A DNA stretch of 64,000 bases from Betaproteobacteria bacterium TMED22 (GTDB taxonomy: Bacteria; Pseudomonadota; Gammaproteobacteria; Burkholderiales; Eutrophovitaceae), in the NCBI GenBank assembly GCA_002167745.1, contig NHCB01000008.1, positions 91,417 to 155,416 on the forward strand, written 5' to 3'. The position numbers and the translations under genes were made by a program. The notes below the pieces were generated by a model that was not told the DNA's origin, ran no database searches, and worked only from the letters and a program-made list of their open reading frames with translations. Of the stretch, positions 12,563-19,026 are shown piece after piece. Position 1 is the stretch's first letter. Each line of letters begins with the position of its first letter.

Positions 12563-14296
12563 TTAATGTATCTCTGGTTCGTCTACAGCGGCATTGCCGC
12601 TTAAAAAATCGAAGTCGCACCCTTCGTGCGCTTGCTGAACGTGTTGAGAAAACAATTGTCCATAACCTCTAGGAAATTTTTTAATTTGGGGGCGCCAAAC
12701 TGTCCGCCGTTTATCTAGCTCCGCGTGGCTTATTAAAACATTGATTTCGCGTTTTTTGGCATCTAACTCGATTATGTCTCCACTTTTGACCAGCGCAAGC
12801 GGTCCTCCTATCCAAGACTCTGGCGACACGTGTAGGACGCATGTCCCGTAACTTGTGCCGCTCATTCGTGCGTCCGAGATCCGAACCATATCGCGAACAC
12901 CTTGTTTCAAAAGTTTTTTGGGTATCGGTAACATGCCCCATTCTGGCATTCCAGGACCACCTTGTGGCCCAGAGTTTCTTAGAACAAGTATTGAGCTCGG
13001 CTCTACATCTAACTCAGGATCATCTAATCGTCGCTCCATATCACTGTAGTTCTCAAAAACTATAGCCTTACCCTTGTGTTTTAAAAGACTAGCGCTCGCC
13101 GCTGAGGTTTTAATAACTGCGCCATTTGGAGCTAAGTTTCCTTTTAAAATAATTAAGCCACCTTCTGCAAGAATTGGCTCGTCTAGGGGCTTAATGACGT
13201 CATTATTAAAGACTTTGAAACGTTTAATATTTTCACCCAATGATTTTCCGGTACAGGTCATTGCCTCTATATTGAGTAATGGCCGCATGACTTGAAGCAG
13301 CGCTGCTAGGCCTCCGGCATAGTGGAAGTCTTCCATGAGATATTTACCAGCAGGGCGCATATTGACTAAGTATGGAGTGGTTTTTCCAATTTTTTCAAAT
13401 AGCTCCAGTGGTAACTCAAACCCCGCTCTTTTCGCAATCGCAATTAAGTGAATTAGGGCATTGGTTGACCCGCCAAGTGCCATCAATACGCGAATAGCAT
13501 TCTCAATAGATGTCCAAGTCAAAATGTTCTTAGGAGTTAAGTCTTCCCAAACCATTTCGACTATGCGTCTACCTGAATCTGAAGCCATACGGGGGTGATT
13601 TGAGTCGGGCGCGGGAATTGTAGATGCATTAGGTAATGTAAAGCCCAACGTTTCTAGGATGCCAGTCATGGTTGACGCGGTACCCATCGTCATGCATGTC
13701 CCAGCAGATCTCGCTATACCTTCCTCAATATCATGCCAATCTTCCTTAGTGATATTCCCAGCTCTGAGTTCATCCCAGTATTTCCAAACATCAGATCCAG
13801 ACCCTAATGTTTTCCCATGCCAGTTCCCTCGAAGCATGGGGCCCGCAGGGACAAATATAGTTGGCAGCCCCATACTTAGCGCGCCCATGAGTAATCCCGG
13901 TGGAGTTTTGTCGCAGCCACCCATCAAAACGCAACCGTCAATTGGATAAGATCTTAAGATCTCTTCAGTCTCCATCGACAACAAGTTACGGTACATCATT
14001 GTCGATGGCTTTTGATAGACTTCGGCTAATGACATCACGGGTATCTCAACTGGAAATCCTCCCGCTTGCCAGATGCCTCGCTTTACGTCTTGCGCTCTTT
14101 CTCGGAAGTGTGAATGACAGTGACTAAGTTCGCTCCACGTATTTAAAATTGCGATGACGGGCTTTCCCTCATAGTCCCGGCGACTAAATCCCATTTGTAA
14201 GGCTCTAGATCGGTGTCCGAAGGCACGAAGGCTCTCGGGTCCGAACCATCGATGCGAGCGTAACTGAGTGGCTTCTTTTATTTTATTAATGGGCAT
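12563..14296 (-). CDS. IlvD/Edd-family sugar-acid dehydratase (L-arabinonate dehydratase-like)
   Basis: Iron-sulfur dehydratase that would remove water from a 2,3-dihydroxy acid to give a 2-keto-3-deoxy acid. Three cysteines stand where the [2Fe-2S] ligands of the sugar-acid branch lie: C60 (LSHCHSH), C128 (GGCDKT, followed by a metal-binding Asp) and C201 (AGTCMTMGTAS). The spacing and the 577 aa length resemble Rhizobium L-arabinonate dehydratase far more than biosynthetic IlvD. The C-terminal RISDARMSGTSYG contains the catalytic Ser region. The residues setting substrate choice cannot be read here, so arabinonate is only the nearest model. It is divergent from the larA-like gene across about 200 bases, which suggests a shared regulator or pathway. 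Confidence 0.85.
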   Translation of the reverse strand: MPINKIKEATQLRSHRWFGPESLRAFGHRSRALQMGFSRRDYEGKPVIAILNTWSELSHCHSHFRERAQDVKRGIWQAGGFPVEIPVMSLAEVYQKPSTMMYRNLLSMETEEILRSYPIDGCVLMGGCDKTPPGLLMGALSMGLPTIFVPAGPMLRGNWHGKTLGSGSDVWKYWDELRAGNITKEDWHDIEEGIARSAGTCMTMGTASTMTGILETLGFTLPNASTIPAPDSNHPRMASDSGRRIVEMVWEDLTPKNILTWTSIENAIRVLMALGGSTNALIHLIAIAKRAGFELPLELFEKIGKTTPYLVNMRPAGKYLMEDFHYAGGLAALLQVMRPLLNIEAMTCTGKSLGENIKRFKVFNNDVIKPLDEPILAEGGLIILKGNLAPNGAVIKTSAASASLLKHKGKAIVFENYSDMERRLDDPELDVEPSSILVLRNSGPQGGPGMPEWGMLPIPKKLLKQGVRDMVRISDARMSGTSYGTCVLHVSPESWIGGPLALVKSGDIIELDAKKREINVLISHAELDKRRTVWRPQIKKFPRGYGQLFSQHVQQAHEGCDFDFLSGNAAVDEPEIH

Positions 14297-14498
14297 TTTT
14301 CTATGTTCTAAATATAATTAATTTCAAATTCACCGTGGCATACTATAAACGCGCAGTCAAAATAAGCTATTTCAGGATATAGGAAAATGTGTAATTCATG
14401 GAGTCTTGGTTTATTGGACCTAATGGACTGAGATAAAATAAGAATTGTTTATGTGCTCGAAGTTTCCTGAGCGCGGTGATCAAGAGAGGAGCGGCGAA
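14297..14498. promoter_or_regulatory. Divergent intergenic region between dehydratase and larA-like genes
   Basis: About 200 AT-rich bases separating two divergent genes, so it must hold both promoters. I see -10-like sequences in both directions (for example TATAGT read leftwards near 14345) but no pairing with a good -35 at proper spacing, and no clear long palindrome for an operator. On the right side a strong Shine-Dalgarno (GAGAGGAG) sits just before the larA-like ATG at 14499. Confidence 0.4.
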
Positions 14499-15821
14499 AT
14501 GATTAATGACCGAATAGATGTAAATATTGCGGGGGGTTTGGACTTACCTCTTCCGCGAATGGTGCACGTGAGACAAAAGTTTGAGTTATCTAAAATTAGC
14601 AGCATTACCGAAACTATTACTCAGGAGTTTACGAAGCCCAATATTCAGTCGAAGATCAAGCCTGGAATGTCGATCGCGATAGGGGTTGGATCTAGAGGCG
14701 TAAATAATATTGCCGAATGTGTTAAGGCTGTAGTGGATAAGATTAAAGAGTTGGGCGGGAATCCGTTTGTTTTCCCTGCGATGGGCAGTCACGGTGGAGC
14801 CACGGCGGAGGGACAGAAAGAAGTATTAGATGGGTACGGTGTTACTGAATCATTTATTGGTTGTCCTGTTCAATCCAGTATGGAAGTGGTTGAGATCGGT
14901 AAGGCTGATGATGGAATGCCGGTTTACATGGATAAACTGGCTTCCGAAGCTGATGCTATTGCGCTCGTGTGTAGGATTAAGCCACACACAAACTTTAGAG
15001 CGCCCATTGAGTCAGGCATCATAAAAATGCTAACTATTGGCATGGGAAAGATTATCGGCGCATCGACTTTACATACTTATGGTATGGATATGTTTGGTGT
15101 TTTGCTGCCTAAGGCGGCTAAAATTATCATGGAAAAAAAGAATTTTTTATTTGGTGTCGCTATGCTAGAAAATGCCGCGGATGAGACTGCAGTCATAGAG
15201 ATCGTACCGAGTGAAGAGGTATTAGAAAGAGAGCCTTTACTTTTGGCTCGAGCAAAAAAGTTGATGCCAAAATTACAATTTGAAGAAATTGATGTCTTAG
15301 TTGTCGAGAAAATCGGCAAAAACATATCTGGCGCTGGAATGGACCCGAACATAACGGGTCGTAATTGCCGAGATGTCGAGTGGGAGATGAGTCCCCACGT
15401 TAAGAAAATTGCTGTTTTAGGTCTTACTCCTGAAACGCACGGCAATGCAACGGGGTTGGGCGCCGCTGATGTCATCACAATGGATGTTTACCGAGACCTG
15501 GATATTTCTAAGACATATGCAAATGTAATTACTTCCATGTACCTGGATGGCGCTGCTATCCCGATCATTATGAATGATGATCAAGCTGCGATACGACTAG
15601 CTGTGAAAACGGTGGTTAGAGTAAAACCAGAGGATGTGAAGATCGTAAGGATTTCTACAACCCTAGAAGTTGTGGATTTGTATGTTTCGGAAAATTTATT
15701 ACCTTACATAGAGAGCAACCCAGACAAGTTTGAGATTGTAAGCGACCCAGAGCCAATGAAGTTTGATGCCAAAGGAAAAATTTATCCCATGATGGCTGTA
15801 CGTTCACATGCTAGTGCTTGA
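14499..15821 (+). CDS. LarA-like nickel-pincer-dependent racemase/epimerase
   Basis: Member of the lactate racemase (LarA, DUF2088) superfamily, which interconverts 2-hydroxy-acid stereoisomers by hydride transfer to a nickel-pincer nucleotide. Expected active-site residues can be placed: R66 (GSRGV), H98 (MGSHGG), H163 (KPHT), K176 (GIIKM, the likely covalent cofactor Lys) and H192 (LHTYG). Relative to Lactobacillus LarA the H-to-K spacing is three residues longer, and the motif SHGGAT replaces the classic form, so this is a divergent branch and lactate should not be assumed. I chose the ATG at 14499 (440 aa) because GAGAGGAG precedes it; an upstream ATG at 14445 has no such site. It leads a larC-larE-larB operon that supplies its cofactor. 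Confidence 0.85.
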   Translation: MINDRIDVNIAGGLDLPLPRMVHVRQKFELSKISSITETITQEFTKPNIQSKIKPGMSIAIGVGSRGVNNIAECVKAVVDKIKELGGNPFVFPAMGSHGGATAEGQKEVLDGYGVTESFIGCPVQSSMEVVEIGKADDGMPVYMDKLASEADAIALVCRIKPHTNFRAPIESGIIKMLTIGMGKIIGASTLHTYGMDMFGVLLPKAAKIIMEKKNFLFGVAMLENAADETAVIEIVPSEEVLEREPLLLARAKKLMPKLQFEEIDVLVVEKIGKNISGAGMDPNITGRNCRDVEWEMSPHVKKIAVLGLTPETHGNATGLGAADVITMDVYRDLDISKTYANVITSMYLDGAAIPIIMNDDQAAIRLAVKTVVRVKPEDVKIVRISTTLEVVDLYVSENLLPYIESNPDKFEIVSDPEPMKFDAKGKIYPMMAVRSHASA

Positions 15822-15856: not shown

Positions 15857-17038
15857 ATGCGTATCCATTTAGATCCTATCGGAGGTGTTGCGGGAGACAT
15901 GTTTATTGCAGCCATTCTGGACGCTAAACCAGAATGGTACGACGAGATGTGCTTAACCATTCGGGCTGCAGGCCTACCCAAAGAAGTTGGATTATCATTA
16001 CAGCCACACACAGATTTTGCGCTTACAGGGACGCGCTTCAGTGTTGACGAATTGGGGGTTCATGAACATCATCACACGCCATTCATAAAGATTAGAGATA
16101 TGTTGTCGGAGTCAACTCTCAAGTCGGGTGTTCGCCAAGCCGCAATAGATATTTTTTCTCTTTTAGCTGAAGCTGAGGCGACAGTGCACGACAAGTCTAT
16201 CGAAACGATCAGTTTTCATGAGGTCGGGGAATGGGATTCTATTGCAGACATTGTTGGGGCTGCATTCTTGATTGATAAAGCATCTGCGACTTGGACCATT
16301 GGGGCTTTGCCATTAGGTCGAGGGGCAGTTGATACCAGTCACGGCAAGTTGCCAGTCCCAACACCGGCTGCGGTTAGTTTGCTCCAAGGCTTTTATTTTG
16401 AAGACGATGGTCTTGATGGAGAGCGTATTACGCCAACCGGAGCGGCGATTTTGTCGTATCTCAAACCACAACAAATAGGCGCGGCTCAAGGCGGAAAATT
16501 AGTTGCATCAGGGACGGGTTTTGGAACTAAAGTTTTTCCAAAGAAGAGTAATGTTTTGCGTGCCTTGATGTTGTCTGTAGATGGGCATGAAGGTCAGTCA
16601 GACGACTTGATTTATCAGATTGATTTTGATCTCGACGACCAAAGTGCGGAGGACTTGGCAATAGGATTAGACCATATTCGCTCACTTCCAACGGTACTTG
16701 ATGTCTCTCAAACGGCACTGTTCGGCAAGAAAGGCAGAATGGCAACAGGAATTCGCGTTCTTGCAACGACTGAAGATGTTGATAAAGTTTTTGAGGTATG
16801 TTTTTTTGAAACATCAACGATAGGGTTGCGTTATCAAGAGCTAAAACGTATGACCCTAGATCGATGGGAAGAGAGTTATGTTAGCGAGCGCTCAGAGGGA
16901 AGCTGCAAATTCGTGAGTCGCTCAGGAATAACAACGCTTAAAGTTGAATCTGACGACCTTGTTAGTACTAAAGGGTATGCTAATAGGGAGCGTTTGCGAC
17001 GAGAAATTTCAACAAAATACGAGACCCCAAGTGATTGA
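15857..17038 (+). CDS. larC: LarC, nickel insertion enzyme for the pincer cofactor
   Basis: CTP-dependent cyclometallase that places nickel into the pyridinium bis-thiocarboxylate precursor, the last step of pincer cofactor synthesis. The N-terminal signature IGGVAGDMFIAAIL, a His cluster (H69, H71-H73 in VHEHHHTPF) suited to metal binding, SFHEVGEWDSIADIVGA and the PTPTGAAIL-type motif (ERITPTGAAIL) are typical of the family. It is a single uninterrupted 393 aa frame, unlike Lactobacillus where larC1 and larC2 are joined by programmed frameshifting. It follows the larA-like gene by 35 bases and overlaps larE. Confidence 0.9.
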   Translation: MRIHLDPIGGVAGDMFIAAILDAKPEWYDEMCLTIRAAGLPKEVGLSLQPHTDFALTGTRFSVDELGVHEHHHTPFIKIRDMLSESTLKSGVRQAAIDIFSLLAEAEATVHDKSIETISFHEVGEWDSIADIVGAAFLIDKASATWTIGALPLGRGAVDTSHGKLPVPTPAAVSLLQGFYFEDDGLDGERITPTGAAILSYLKPQQIGAAQGGKLVASGTGFGTKVFPKKSNVLRALMLSVDGHEGQSDDLIYQIDFDLDDQSAEDLAIGLDHIRSLPTVLDVSQTALFGKKGRMATGIRVLATTEDVDKVFEVCFFETSTIGLRYQELKRMTLDRWEESYVSERSEGSCKFVSRSGITTLKVESDDLVSTKGYANRERLRREISTKYETPSD

Positions 17039-17870
17039 AGACGTTTCTGAGCATATAACTAAAATACGTGCGCTATTCGCTGAGATGAAAGAGGTCTCAG
17101 TAGCGGTTAGTGGAGGCATAGATAGCGTGACGCTTGCTGTTTTGGCTAGCCAGACACCGAACATTTCTATTCAAATGTATCATGCTGTTTCGCCGGCGGT
17201 ACCATCACAGGCCACAGATCGAGTGAAGCAGTTGTCTCGTGATTACGGTTGGAGCCTACAAATTTTGGATGCTCATGAATTTGCTGATGAAGACTATTTG
17301 TCGAACCCTGTTAACCGTTGTTTTTACTGTAAAACGAATTTATATAAAGCGATATCGGCTGTGAGTGGAGGCGTCATAGTGTCGGGTGCGAATACGGATG
17401 ATCTATCTGATTATCGGCCGGGATTAGACGCCGCGAAAAACGCCAGTGTGCGTCATCCCTATGTAGAAACGTTAACGAATAAAAGTCTGGTTAGATCTAT
17501 AGCGAAACAAATAGGTTTAGGTGAGCTATCAGAGCTGGCAGCGTCACCGTGCTTGTCGAGTAGAGTAGAGACGGGCATCCGCATAGACCCAGAACTTTTA
17601 CCGCTTATTAACGAGACCGAGCGCTTGATTGCGCAATCCGTCTTTCCAGAGCCTGAAACAGTGAGGTGCCGGGTTCGGTCTGCCGGTGTCGTGATCGAAT
17701 TAGATGATAGGTCAATGTCCCGATTAACAACGCAAAAACGACAGACATTAAAAGAGAAAATAAATACCATTTTCAAATATCGGGGCTATAAATATCCTGT
17801 TAACTTTGAAGTGTATAAATTGGGCAGTGCATTTATTCATATAAAATCTACGCGTGCTGTTGAATCGTAA
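17031..17870 (+). CDS. larE: LarE, PP-loop sulfur transferase for the pincer cofactor
   Basis: ATP-dependent enzyme that adenylates and thiolates the carboxylates of the cofactor precursor made by LarB. The PP-loop is SGGIDS (residues 27-32). C174 in ASPCLSSR matches the sulfur-donating Cys176 of Lactobacillus LarE. A CxxC pair (C97, C100 in NRCFYCK) is also present, as in the cluster-bearing three-cysteine LarE type. I chose the GTG at 17031, which overlaps the larC stop by eight bases and gives 279 aa, the family size; an upstream ATG at 16944 would add 29 residues encoded inside larC. It couples to larB by a one-base stop/start overlap. Confidence 0.9.
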   Translation: MIEDVSEHITKIRALFAEMKEVSVAVSGGIDSVTLAVLASQTPNISIQMYHAVSPAVPSQATDRVKQLSRDYGWSLQILDAHEFADEDYLSNPVNRCFYCKTNLYKAISAVSGGVIVSGANTDDLSDYRPGLDAAKNASVRHPYVETLTNKSLVRSIAKQIGLGELSELAASPCLSSRVETGIRIDPELLPLINETERLIAQSVFPEPETVRCRVRSAGVVIELDDRSMSRLTTQKRQTLKEKINTIFKYRGYKYPVNFEVYKLGSAFIHIKSTRAVES

Positions 17871-18535
17871 TGAGCTTCGCAGAAGATATTAAGTTAGATT
17901 TTAATAGGGAAGACCGCATCGGTCTCGACGAGGCGATTTTTTGCGAAGGAAAAACTTCGGAGCAGATCGCAGAAATTCTTCGGCAGGCTCAGTCGAATCA
18001 ACGCCGATTTCTTCTCACGCGTCTGTCTAGCGATAAGCAACAAGATGTACTTAGCTTGGGCGAGTTCGACATGGATTACGATCCAATATCAAGAACTGCT
18101 TATTTTCCTGATTCCAACGAGCTTATCAGCGAAAATCAGGTCTCAGTCATTTGTGCAGGTACCTCAGATGTTCCAGTGGCCAAAGAGGTCGTTAGGACTT
18201 TGCGGTATTACGGACATCTTGCTGTAGAGATTTCGGACGTGGGCGTTGCCGGACTATGGCGATTACTTGATCGGCTAGATGATATTAAGGTAGCCAAGGT
18301 TGTCGTCGTCATCGCGGGAATGGATGCCGCACTGCCAACGGTCTTGGGCGGCTTGGTAGCGCAGCCACTTATTGGGGTGCCAACGTCAGTCGGTTATGGT
18401 GTGGCTCAAGGTGGGACTGCTGCGCTTCAAGCTATGTTAGCTAGTTGCTCTCCAGGAATAACCGTCACGAATATTGATAACGGTTACGGGGGCGCATGTG
18501 CTGCTCTGAGAATACTCAGAACAGCACTAACTTAA
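17870..18535 (+). CDS. larB: LarB, nicotinate adenine dinucleotide carboxylase/hydrolase
   Basis: First enzyme of nickel-pincer cofactor synthesis: carboxylates the pyridinium ring of nicotinate adenine dinucleotide and hydrolyses off AMP. The C-terminal half resembles PurE (ICAGTSDVPVAKEVV, VVIAGMDAALPTVLGGLV, GVPTSVGYG). The N-terminus carries the LarB-type DEAIFCEGKT stretch (about 20-29). Length 221 aa is slightly short but complete. Its ATG overlaps the larE stop by one base. No Ni transporter or LarD-type channel gene follows; the next gene converges from the other strand nine bases away. Confidence 0.9.
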   Translation: MSFAEDIKLDFNREDRIGLDEAIFCEGKTSEQIAEILRQAQSNQRRFLLTRLSSDKQQDVLSLGEFDMDYDPISRTAYFPDSNELISENQVSVICAGTSDVPVAKEVVRTLRYYGHLAVEISDVGVAGLWRLLDRLDDIKVAKVVVVIAGMDAALPTVLGGLVAQPLIGVPTSVGYGVAQGGTAALQAMLASCSPGITVTNIDNGYGGACAALRILRTALT

Positions 18536-18543
18536 TCGCCGAT

Positions 18544-19026
18544 TTACTGCAACTCCGAAGCTACCGCATCAATTCCGGCTTGTGCGCAAATTCCATCATC
18601 GCTAGCTGGCGCGCCGGAGACACCAATGGAGCCAATGTGTTCGCCGCTAGCAGTCATTACAGGAAGACCGCCCTCAAATGCTGCAACGCCAGGAACATGG
18701 GCAATTCCAGGCACGCGAGTTGCAGCGATTTCTTCAACTACTTTAGTAGAGAAAGGAAATCCTGCTGAGGTTTCCGCTTTTAGTATTGCGATCTCAATAC
18801 TTTTTAGAAAGGCCCTGTCCATGCGCTGGAAATAGATTAAATTACCGCCGGCATCCATGATGGCAATATTCATACGCCAACCTTCTTGACTCGCTCTATC
18901 TTCACAGGCTTGCGCCATTTTCTTTGCCATCTCTAATGTCAACACGGGTCGCATTTCTACCGCGTTCGCATTGCTGAAAATAAAGCTAGAAAAGGATAGA
19001 ACGATTAGACTAATAATTTTCTTCAT
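18544..19026 (-). CDS. Exported GlcG/HbpS-family protein
   Basis: Small 160 aa protein of the GlcG/HbpS (heme-degrading-domain, DUF336) family. The N-terminus is a clear signal peptide: MKK, a hydrophobic stretch to about residue 18, and a cleavage-like SNANA before about 23. The mature part carries the family motifs MNIAIMDAGGNLIYFQRMD, KAETSA and the glycine-rich end GSIGVSGAPASDDGICAQAG. Relatives bind heme or corrinoids, or lie beside glycolate oxidase genes; no enzymatic role is certain. Translation is well marked by AAGGAGTAAT. A -10-like TATAAT (19079-19084, minus strand) lies upstream but has a poor -35. It converges on larB with only eight bases between, so it is transcribed separately from the Lar genes. 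Confidence 0.82.
   Translation of the reverse strand: MKKIISLIVLSFSSFIFSNANAVEMRPVLTLEMAKKMAQACEDRASQEGWRMNIAIMDAGGNLIYFQRMDRAFLKSIEIAILKAETSAGFPFSTKVVEEIAATRVPGIAHVPGVAAFEGGLPVMTASGEHIGSIGVSGAPASDDGICAQAGIDAVASELQ

Follow-up and report, generated by a model that had tools for sequence, protein, structure and literature searches.

A group-22 LarA homologue with a lengthened active-site loop, encoded with nickel-pincer cofactor genes and beside a sugar-acid dehydratase-like gene

The window, i.e., the whole stretch of 64,000 nucleotides analysed here, encodes a LarA-like protein in which the presumed active-site residues are unusually spaced (Table 1), raising the question of whether it is a nickel pincer cofactor (NPN)-dependent enzyme and, if so, on which substrate it acts. 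The gene at 14499–15821 on the forward strand is translated into 440 residues with zero internal stops. This protein scores 532.7 bits over residues 18–405 against the NCBIfam model NF052515 (nickel pincer cofactor-dependent isomerase, group 22; cut-off 400), the sole NCBIfam family above its cut-off, with malate racemase and LarAH10 following at 25.8 and 20.2 bits, respectively. The match to Pfam Lar_N is weak (31.6 bits, cut-off 23.3). The gene product is a distant relative of lactate racemase, its likeness to LarA being evident from the sequence as well as from the predicted N-terminal fold, and it is, judged from its sequence, an added member of the already named family NF052515, with no difference from group 22 found. 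Genes of this group are uncommon, being present in 3 of 398 genomes of a phylum sample, the genome of the window counted, and in 10 of 367 genomes of one sampled class. Related genes were found in 114 plasmid records, 47 of them from Pseudosulfitobacter alone, at a query coverage of at least 80% in 110 records and at less than 60% identity in every one; the inspected plasmids with group-22 relatives belong to Bacillota, Actinomycetota, Rhodobacterales and Halobacteria. On viral contigs, no relative was found with the patterns tried. In the PDB, sequence searches starting from either the protein or the group profile retrieved no LarA; three matches (MJ1213) at E values of 0.64–0.71 were judged to be due to chance.

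Table 1. Coordinates of the group-22 gene, its presumed active-site segments and the neighboring genes in the window.
Feature	Position	Strand	Details
IlvD/EDD dehydratase, L-arabinonate dehydratase-like (araD-like), divergent to the larA gene	12563..14296	-	NF009559, 960.3 bits (cut-off 882)
202-base intergenic region between the divergent genes, presumably a shared control region	14297..14498	.	
LarA homologue, group 22	14499..15821	+	440 aa, ATG start; R66, H98, H163, K176, H192
MGSHGGAT with H98 (= LarA H108), residues 95-102	14781..14804	+	profile alignment; H98 in 48/48 distinct rows with a letter
KPHTNFRAPIESGIIK, residues 161-176: His163, loop with three residues more than LarA, predicted NPN lysine K176	14979..15026	+	alignments
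H192, predicted to ligate nickel; same distance from K176 (16 residues) as in LarA	15072..15074	+	alignment
LarC, nickel insertion protein, LarC1 and LarC2 in one open frame	15857..17038	+	TIGR00299, 166.3 bits (cut-off 90); NF052512, 85.5 bits (cut-off 50)
LarE, sulfur transferase	16944..17870 (open frame; family match from residue 39)	+	TIGR00268, 217.1 bits (cut-off 150)
LarB of NPN synthesis	17870..18535	+	NF033503, 263.2 bits (cut-off 175)
HbpS-like protein after larB, opposite strand	18544..19026	-	kept there in near relatives

The five residues named as LarA ligand equivalents in the preliminary description of this DNA are exactly so numbered in the translation, and the first histidine does lie within MGSHGGAT. 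Profile alignment pairs R66, H98, H163, K176 and H192 with R75, H108, H174, K184 and H200 of LarA, respectively. Likewise, the displacement by three residues that had been noticed for the lysine and the later histidine relative to H163 is real, as H163 and K176 are 13 instead of 10 residues apart while the distance of 16 residues between K176 and H192 is kept. The 13 + 16 spacing is common to all 49 distinct group-22 proteins aligned, which stem from Pseudomonadota, Bacillota, Actinomycetota and Halobacteria, whereas all 15 canonical LarA-type sequences (LarA of L. plantarum, I. pallida and T. thermosaccharolyticum plus Mar2 from the PDB, and eleven from genomes) show 10 + 16, indicating that a true family hallmark had been seen. 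Residue numbers given in the main texts of PMC7583248 for GntE2 (a histidine just before E155, K164, H180) and of PMC12611868 for LarASp (N185, K195 and His211, printed once as His221) also result in 10 and 16. The group-22 alignment comprised 59 rows, with L001–L003 and L026–L029 left out as repeats, and the distinct set of 49 rows was obtained by removing L038–L047, representing the same genes as L050–L059; L024 is without its first part. Chance as a cause of the odd spacing is ruled out by the agreement of all 49 proteins, and a frame error was dropped as an explanation due to the absence of stops and the existence of relatives with up to 93% identity. However, as the shift marks a whole named family, it says by itself little on the substrate of the enzyme encoded in the window.

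Conservation within group 22 is complete at all five positions, with R66 and H98 present in each of the 48 rows covering them and H163, K176 and H192 in 49 of 49. In the profile comparison, the extra residues belong to the loop that follows the second histidine (KPHTNFRAPIESGIIK versus EPH--FMAGY-SGGRK in LarA) and deeper profiles give the same frame, so that the binding loop indeed differs as had been proposed. The accompanying statement of a kept catalytic set holds for the histidine pair, the NPN lysine and the histidine presumed to bind nickel, but not for the equivalent of LarA D72. This position is taken by V63 in the protein and by V, C, A or G in group 22, with Asp absent from all 48 rows covering this column, and the D-x-T-R motif of LarA is replaced by GSRG with R66 retained. 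As an Asp of the D72 type associates with the cofactor ribose according to the main text of PMC12611868, its absence suggests that the cofactor pocket differs beyond the loop. In the profile comparison, only about 200 columns show similarity between canonical LarA and group 22, and the C-terminal domain, including LarA Q295/K298, is not aligned; in group 22, K274 is invariant.

An AlphaFold model built on an alignment of 21 close relatives reached a mean pLDDT of only 51.2, with residues 162–172, 185–198 and nearly all of 255–440 below 50, while blocks within approximately residues 31–160 are mostly confident. With this model, all 17 Foldseek matches at E ≤ 0.001 are LarA-family chains, and VIA-align gave 12 LarA-family rows at Z values of 18.5–20.6 (211–258 aligned residues, rmsd 2.6–4.4), followed by the next row at 6.3. 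On this modeled basis, kinship of the N-terminal domain to the LarA fold can be regarded as secure. Due to the pLDDT below 50 of the loop residues, active-site geometry is not drawn from the model, and the substrate pocket is unseen because the C-terminal domain is unaligned and poorly modeled.

Compared with LarA of L. plantarum and I. pallida, racemases of lactate and short-chain 2-hydroxy acids, the protein has in common the N-terminal fold, the R-H-H-K-H set, the K–H distance of 16 and the cofactor genes, but differs in the His–Lys distance (13 versus 10), in lacking a D72 equivalent, in bearing GG instead of RP after the first histidine, in a C-terminal domain that cannot be aligned and in its sugar-acid gene context. 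The signature of the lactate racemase (LAR) group described in the main text of PMC11770544 consists of F-F after the second histidine as well as W and E/Q in helix 14. In the protein from the window, F-F is absent, as T164 and N165 follow H163, and the helix 14 positions are not alignable. Although the N-terminal LarA fold and the ligand set would also suit a genuine lactate racemase whose loop happens to be unusual, this is exceedingly improbable considering that no NCBIfam family other than group 22 exceeds its cut-off, that T164-N165 stands in place of the usual F-F (signature in the main text of PMC11770544), and that the genome possesses a separate canonical LarA homologue having I. pallida LarA as its best PDB match. 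Hence, the earlier expectation that the substrate is likely not lactate stands to the extent that a lactate racemase is suggested neither by the family nor by the gene context; it is to be read as likely only. Some relatives are found in acyl-CoA clusters.

Other members of the superfamily offer parallels in setting or in divergence. GntE2 of T. maritima, a D-gluconate 2-epimerase (4NAR), has the common N-terminal fold (Z 18.6) and a sugar-acid setting, but shows a 10-residue spacing and E-S after the second histidine (main text of PMC7583248), compared with 13 residues and T-N here; hence, the GntE signature of E-V or E-S at this position is absent. LarABw and LarASp, forming a single-histidine branch (main text of PMC12611868), are also divergent with an altered active site and score similarly in the fold comparison (Z 19.4). 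In these proteins, however, Asn replaces the second histidine while Asp and the normal spacing are kept, whereas group 22 has kept the histidine, lacks the Asp and possesses a longer loop. The existence of such branches with altered active sites (main text of PMC12611868), the missing D72 equivalent in every row with a letter and the loop longer by three residues in 49 of 49 proteins would be compatible with a LarA-fold NPN binder whose pocket has been rebuilt for a different hydride reaction, such as one-way epimerization, oxidation or elimination. We consider this unlikely since, unlike in the Asn-type branch, the acid/base histidines are both retained wherever a row covers their positions. 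A further LarA homologue was encountered in L067 and L068 (genomes G674 and G588), showing Ser 10 residues before the presumed NPN lysine and then Asn (QSNHWGAGGGGK); the L068 protein scores far below every NCBIfam cut-off, the best model being malate racemase at 149.7 of 500 bits.

In the window, the group-22 gene heads a cluster in the order larA-larC-larE-larB on one strand. The linkage is preserved elsewhere, as larC is the next gene in 21 of 21 related loci and both larE and larB are present in 19 of them, the other two stopping at contig ends. In Paenibacillus, the order is uxaC, larA22, SDR, larE, larB and larC, while in Marinovum, larB, larE and larC, identified by similarity, lie nearby on the other strand. 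The group-22 gene is linked to larC in Sulfitobacter and Pseudosulfitobacter, and a linkage to lar genes is also seen in genome G086. LarB was found above cut-off in 22 of 22 genomes searched, which had been chosen for holding group 22 and comprise 19 of the genomes of the 21 loci (those of L005 and L024 left out) plus three. G086 and G299, both with a listed completeness of 100%, contain larB, larC and larE but no Lar_N match apart from the group-22 gene; LarA_C and the hexonate group NF052594 were not matched in either genome. Similarly, the control genome of Haloferax volcanii has NF052515, LarB and LarC above cut-off but no match to Lar_N, LarA_C or NF052594, the Lar_N model being known to miss some LarA homologues. 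The latter is evident from the Corynebacterium glutamicum control, where LarB and LarC match and Lar_N does not, although GntE1 is reported from this species (main text of PMC7583248). Consequently, an absent Lar_N match is no proof of group 22 being the sole NPN client.

At the level of one class, LarB is present in 8 of 10 group-22 genomes versus 26 of 367 overall (Fisher p 8e-9, uncorrected for kinship). However, 7 of these 8 LarB-bearing genomes also encode a protein with a strong Lar_N match (E < 1e-40), and LarB might be kept for that protein; LarB was present in each of the 20 genomes showing a Lar_N match of this strength. Separately, five genomes (G456, G478, G537, G670 and G725) show LarB at 278–294 bits without a Lar_N or group-22 match, as do the controls Synechococcus elongatus and Methanocaldococcus jannaschii with LarB above cut-off; in G456 and G478, LarA_C was not matched either, with the mentioned gaps of the Lar_N model applying here as well.

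Gene linkage can be taken as good evidence for the predicted use of NPN by group 22. The opposite view, that the protein is not an NPN enzyme but a DUF362-like or other protein merely encoded beside lar genes, could refer to the score for Pfam DUF362 (PF04015), which at 21.1 bits is slightly below the cut-off of 24, to the DUF362 annotation of one relative, and to the MAGs G742 and G618, in which group-22 genes are present while no LarB (E ≤ 1e-40) and neither LarC nor LarE above cut-off was found. Both MAGs are drafts, 96 and 97% complete, respectively, with G618 being 10% contaminated and having its gene on a 4.8 kb contig, and both group-22 proteins retain all five ligands; a missing contig would be a fair explanation for the absent lar genes. 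With the lysine and histidine invariant at LarA spacing and lar genes linked in several distant lineages, we regard a protein unrelated to NPN as very unlikely.

Regarding the substrate, an araD-like gene lies divergent to the group-22 gene in the window. This arrangement is found in five of the six nearest loci, the sixth being cut by a contig end. In L010, L012 and L023, an araD-like gene is located 6–8 kb upstream, in G410 and G416 it is on a contig separate from the lar genes, and in the remaining Burkholderiales loci examined it was not seen. More distantly, araD-like genes above cut-off are part of the clusters of G086, Sulfitobacter and Pseudosulfitobacter, while in G299 the neighboring dehydratase is related but under cut-off, with two above-cut-off copies elsewhere. 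In eight genomes searched, one to four araD-like genes each were detected (E ≤ 1e-150), and at such a number nearness to the group-22 gene looks unlikely to be due to chance. In the near relatives L004 (4806-5978) and L006 (4793-5965), the araD-like gene is followed by an aminotransferase gene, which the window does not contain; the aminotransferase of L004 resembles BhcA (424.7 bits, cut-off 650). In addition, the genome of the window has an araD/IlvD-type dehydratase gene with one in-frame TGA (G000:C4:194899-196551), representing either a decayed gene or an assembly error.

Other sugar-acid genes beside group-22 relatives are uxaC in Paenibacillus as well as genes for the altronate dehydratase family, KDPG-aldolase and KDGal-kinase, and another relative adjoins genes for a four-carbon acid sugar kinase and pdxA. 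Furthermore, the same genome encodes a second group-22 protein (L025 1204-5349, G000:C12), its gene lying between that of the canonical LarA homologue and a sugar-acid-dehydratase-like gene. This canonical homologue, best matching I. pallida LarA in the PDB, is under all NCBIfam cut-offs (best NF033504, 339 of 460 bits), as is the enzyme encoded after the second group-22 gene, which most resembles arabinonate and galactonate dehydratases. This enzyme is presumably a member of the enolase superfamily. The LarA/group-22 pair recurs in several Burkholderiales genomes. Hence, both group-22 genes of the genome adjoin sugar-acid-type dehydratase genes belonging to two different families. A glycogen-synthase gene upstream in one scanned relative, which clusters with five others, was dropped as a functional partner.

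This recurrent sugar-acid dehydratase context is read as C2 epimerization of a sugar acid ahead of its dehydration. In this reading, to which we give an even chance of being correct on the basis of the predicted proteins and their neighborhood, the group-22 protein would be an NPN-dependent C2-epimerase whose gene is clustered with those of the cofactor synthesis proteins LarC, LarE and LarB. The NPN cofactor would be held by K176 via a thioamide, with H192 as fourth nickel ligand, while H98 and H163 would alternate as acid and base. A hydride at C2 of a 2-hydroxy acid would be transferred to the cofactor and back, resulting in inversion of C2, and the longer loop between His163 and Lys176 together with the absent D72 equivalent would reshape the pocket. 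The likely substrate would be a polyhydroxy (sugar) acid. Its C2 epimer would be dehydrated by the L-arabinonate dehydratase-like enzyme of the divergent gene, enabling the cell to use the other epimer. The exact substrate is a guess; from general chemistry, pairs such as L-ribonate and L-arabinonate or D-talonate and D-galactonate, in each case converted from the former to the latter, might be considered.

Not all of group 22 appears in such a setting. In a tree of group 22 only, with midpoint root and long branches flagged as unsure, the sister clade of the Burkholderiales genes consists of four rows (joining fork 100/95), and three of these (L050, L052 and L053 from genomes G525, G620 and G583) lie among genes for acyl-CoA dehydrogenase, enoyl-CoA hydratase, thiolase, FadJ-like proteins or CoA ligase. 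In L052, genes for an SDR, LarA22, an acyl-CoA ligase and an LLM-type oxidoreductase follow each other on one strand with gaps of about 50–210 bases. Acyl-CoA gene clusters may be a setting new to NPN chemistry. The fourth row, L051, is found beside HpcH/HpaI-aldolase, FAD-linked oxidase and TIM-barrel genes, and other group-22 members adjoin genes for an EmrAB-type pump or an arginase-family protein. From these divergent contexts, group 22 is probably mixed in substrate. For the protein in the window, an NPN isomerase acting on something other than a sugar acid, either a small or hydrophobic 2-hydroxy acid or an acyl-CoA-linked compound, with the araD-like neighbor being incidental, is accordingly possible but doubtful. 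It would be in line with the acyl-CoA context of three of the four sister-clade genes, with the range of known LarA homologues from lactate to aromatic 2-hydroxy acids (main text of PMC11770544) and with the observation that genomic context did not always predict LarA homologue activity (main text of PMC7583248). Against it stand the dehydratases of two families beside the two group-22 genes of this genome and the recurrence of araD-like genes in distant clades.

In a literature search covering main texts, no assays of group-22 proteins were found. The 2020 activity table of the superfamily lists 13 homologues besides LarA but no LarAH22, with group 22 being absent from the main text (PMC7583248), and neither LarAH22 nor group 22 appears in the main text of PMC11770544. 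Group 22 is a named family in NCBIfam for which no assay was found and of which the odd spacing is a fixed hallmark. The gene cluster in the window is compact, includes the cofactor genes and adjoins the gene of a candidate pathway enzyme, which makes a test of the substrate direct. For Haloferax volcanii, it has been stated that it may contain a nickel-pincer enzyme, with the term LarA absent from the main text (PMC8305020, 2021); with group 22, there is now a concrete candidate for the enzyme that larBCE of this archaeon would serve. More generally, and as a tentative and rather unlikely extension, group 22 would represent a separate NPN architecture, with a longer His–Lys loop, no D72 and a different C-terminal domain, spread over bacteria and haloarchaea. 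It would then account for NPN use in organisms without a named enzyme of this kind, such as Haloferax volcanii, and some of its members would act on substrates new to NPN chemistry, ranging from C4–C6 sugar acids to compounds of acyl-CoA pathways.
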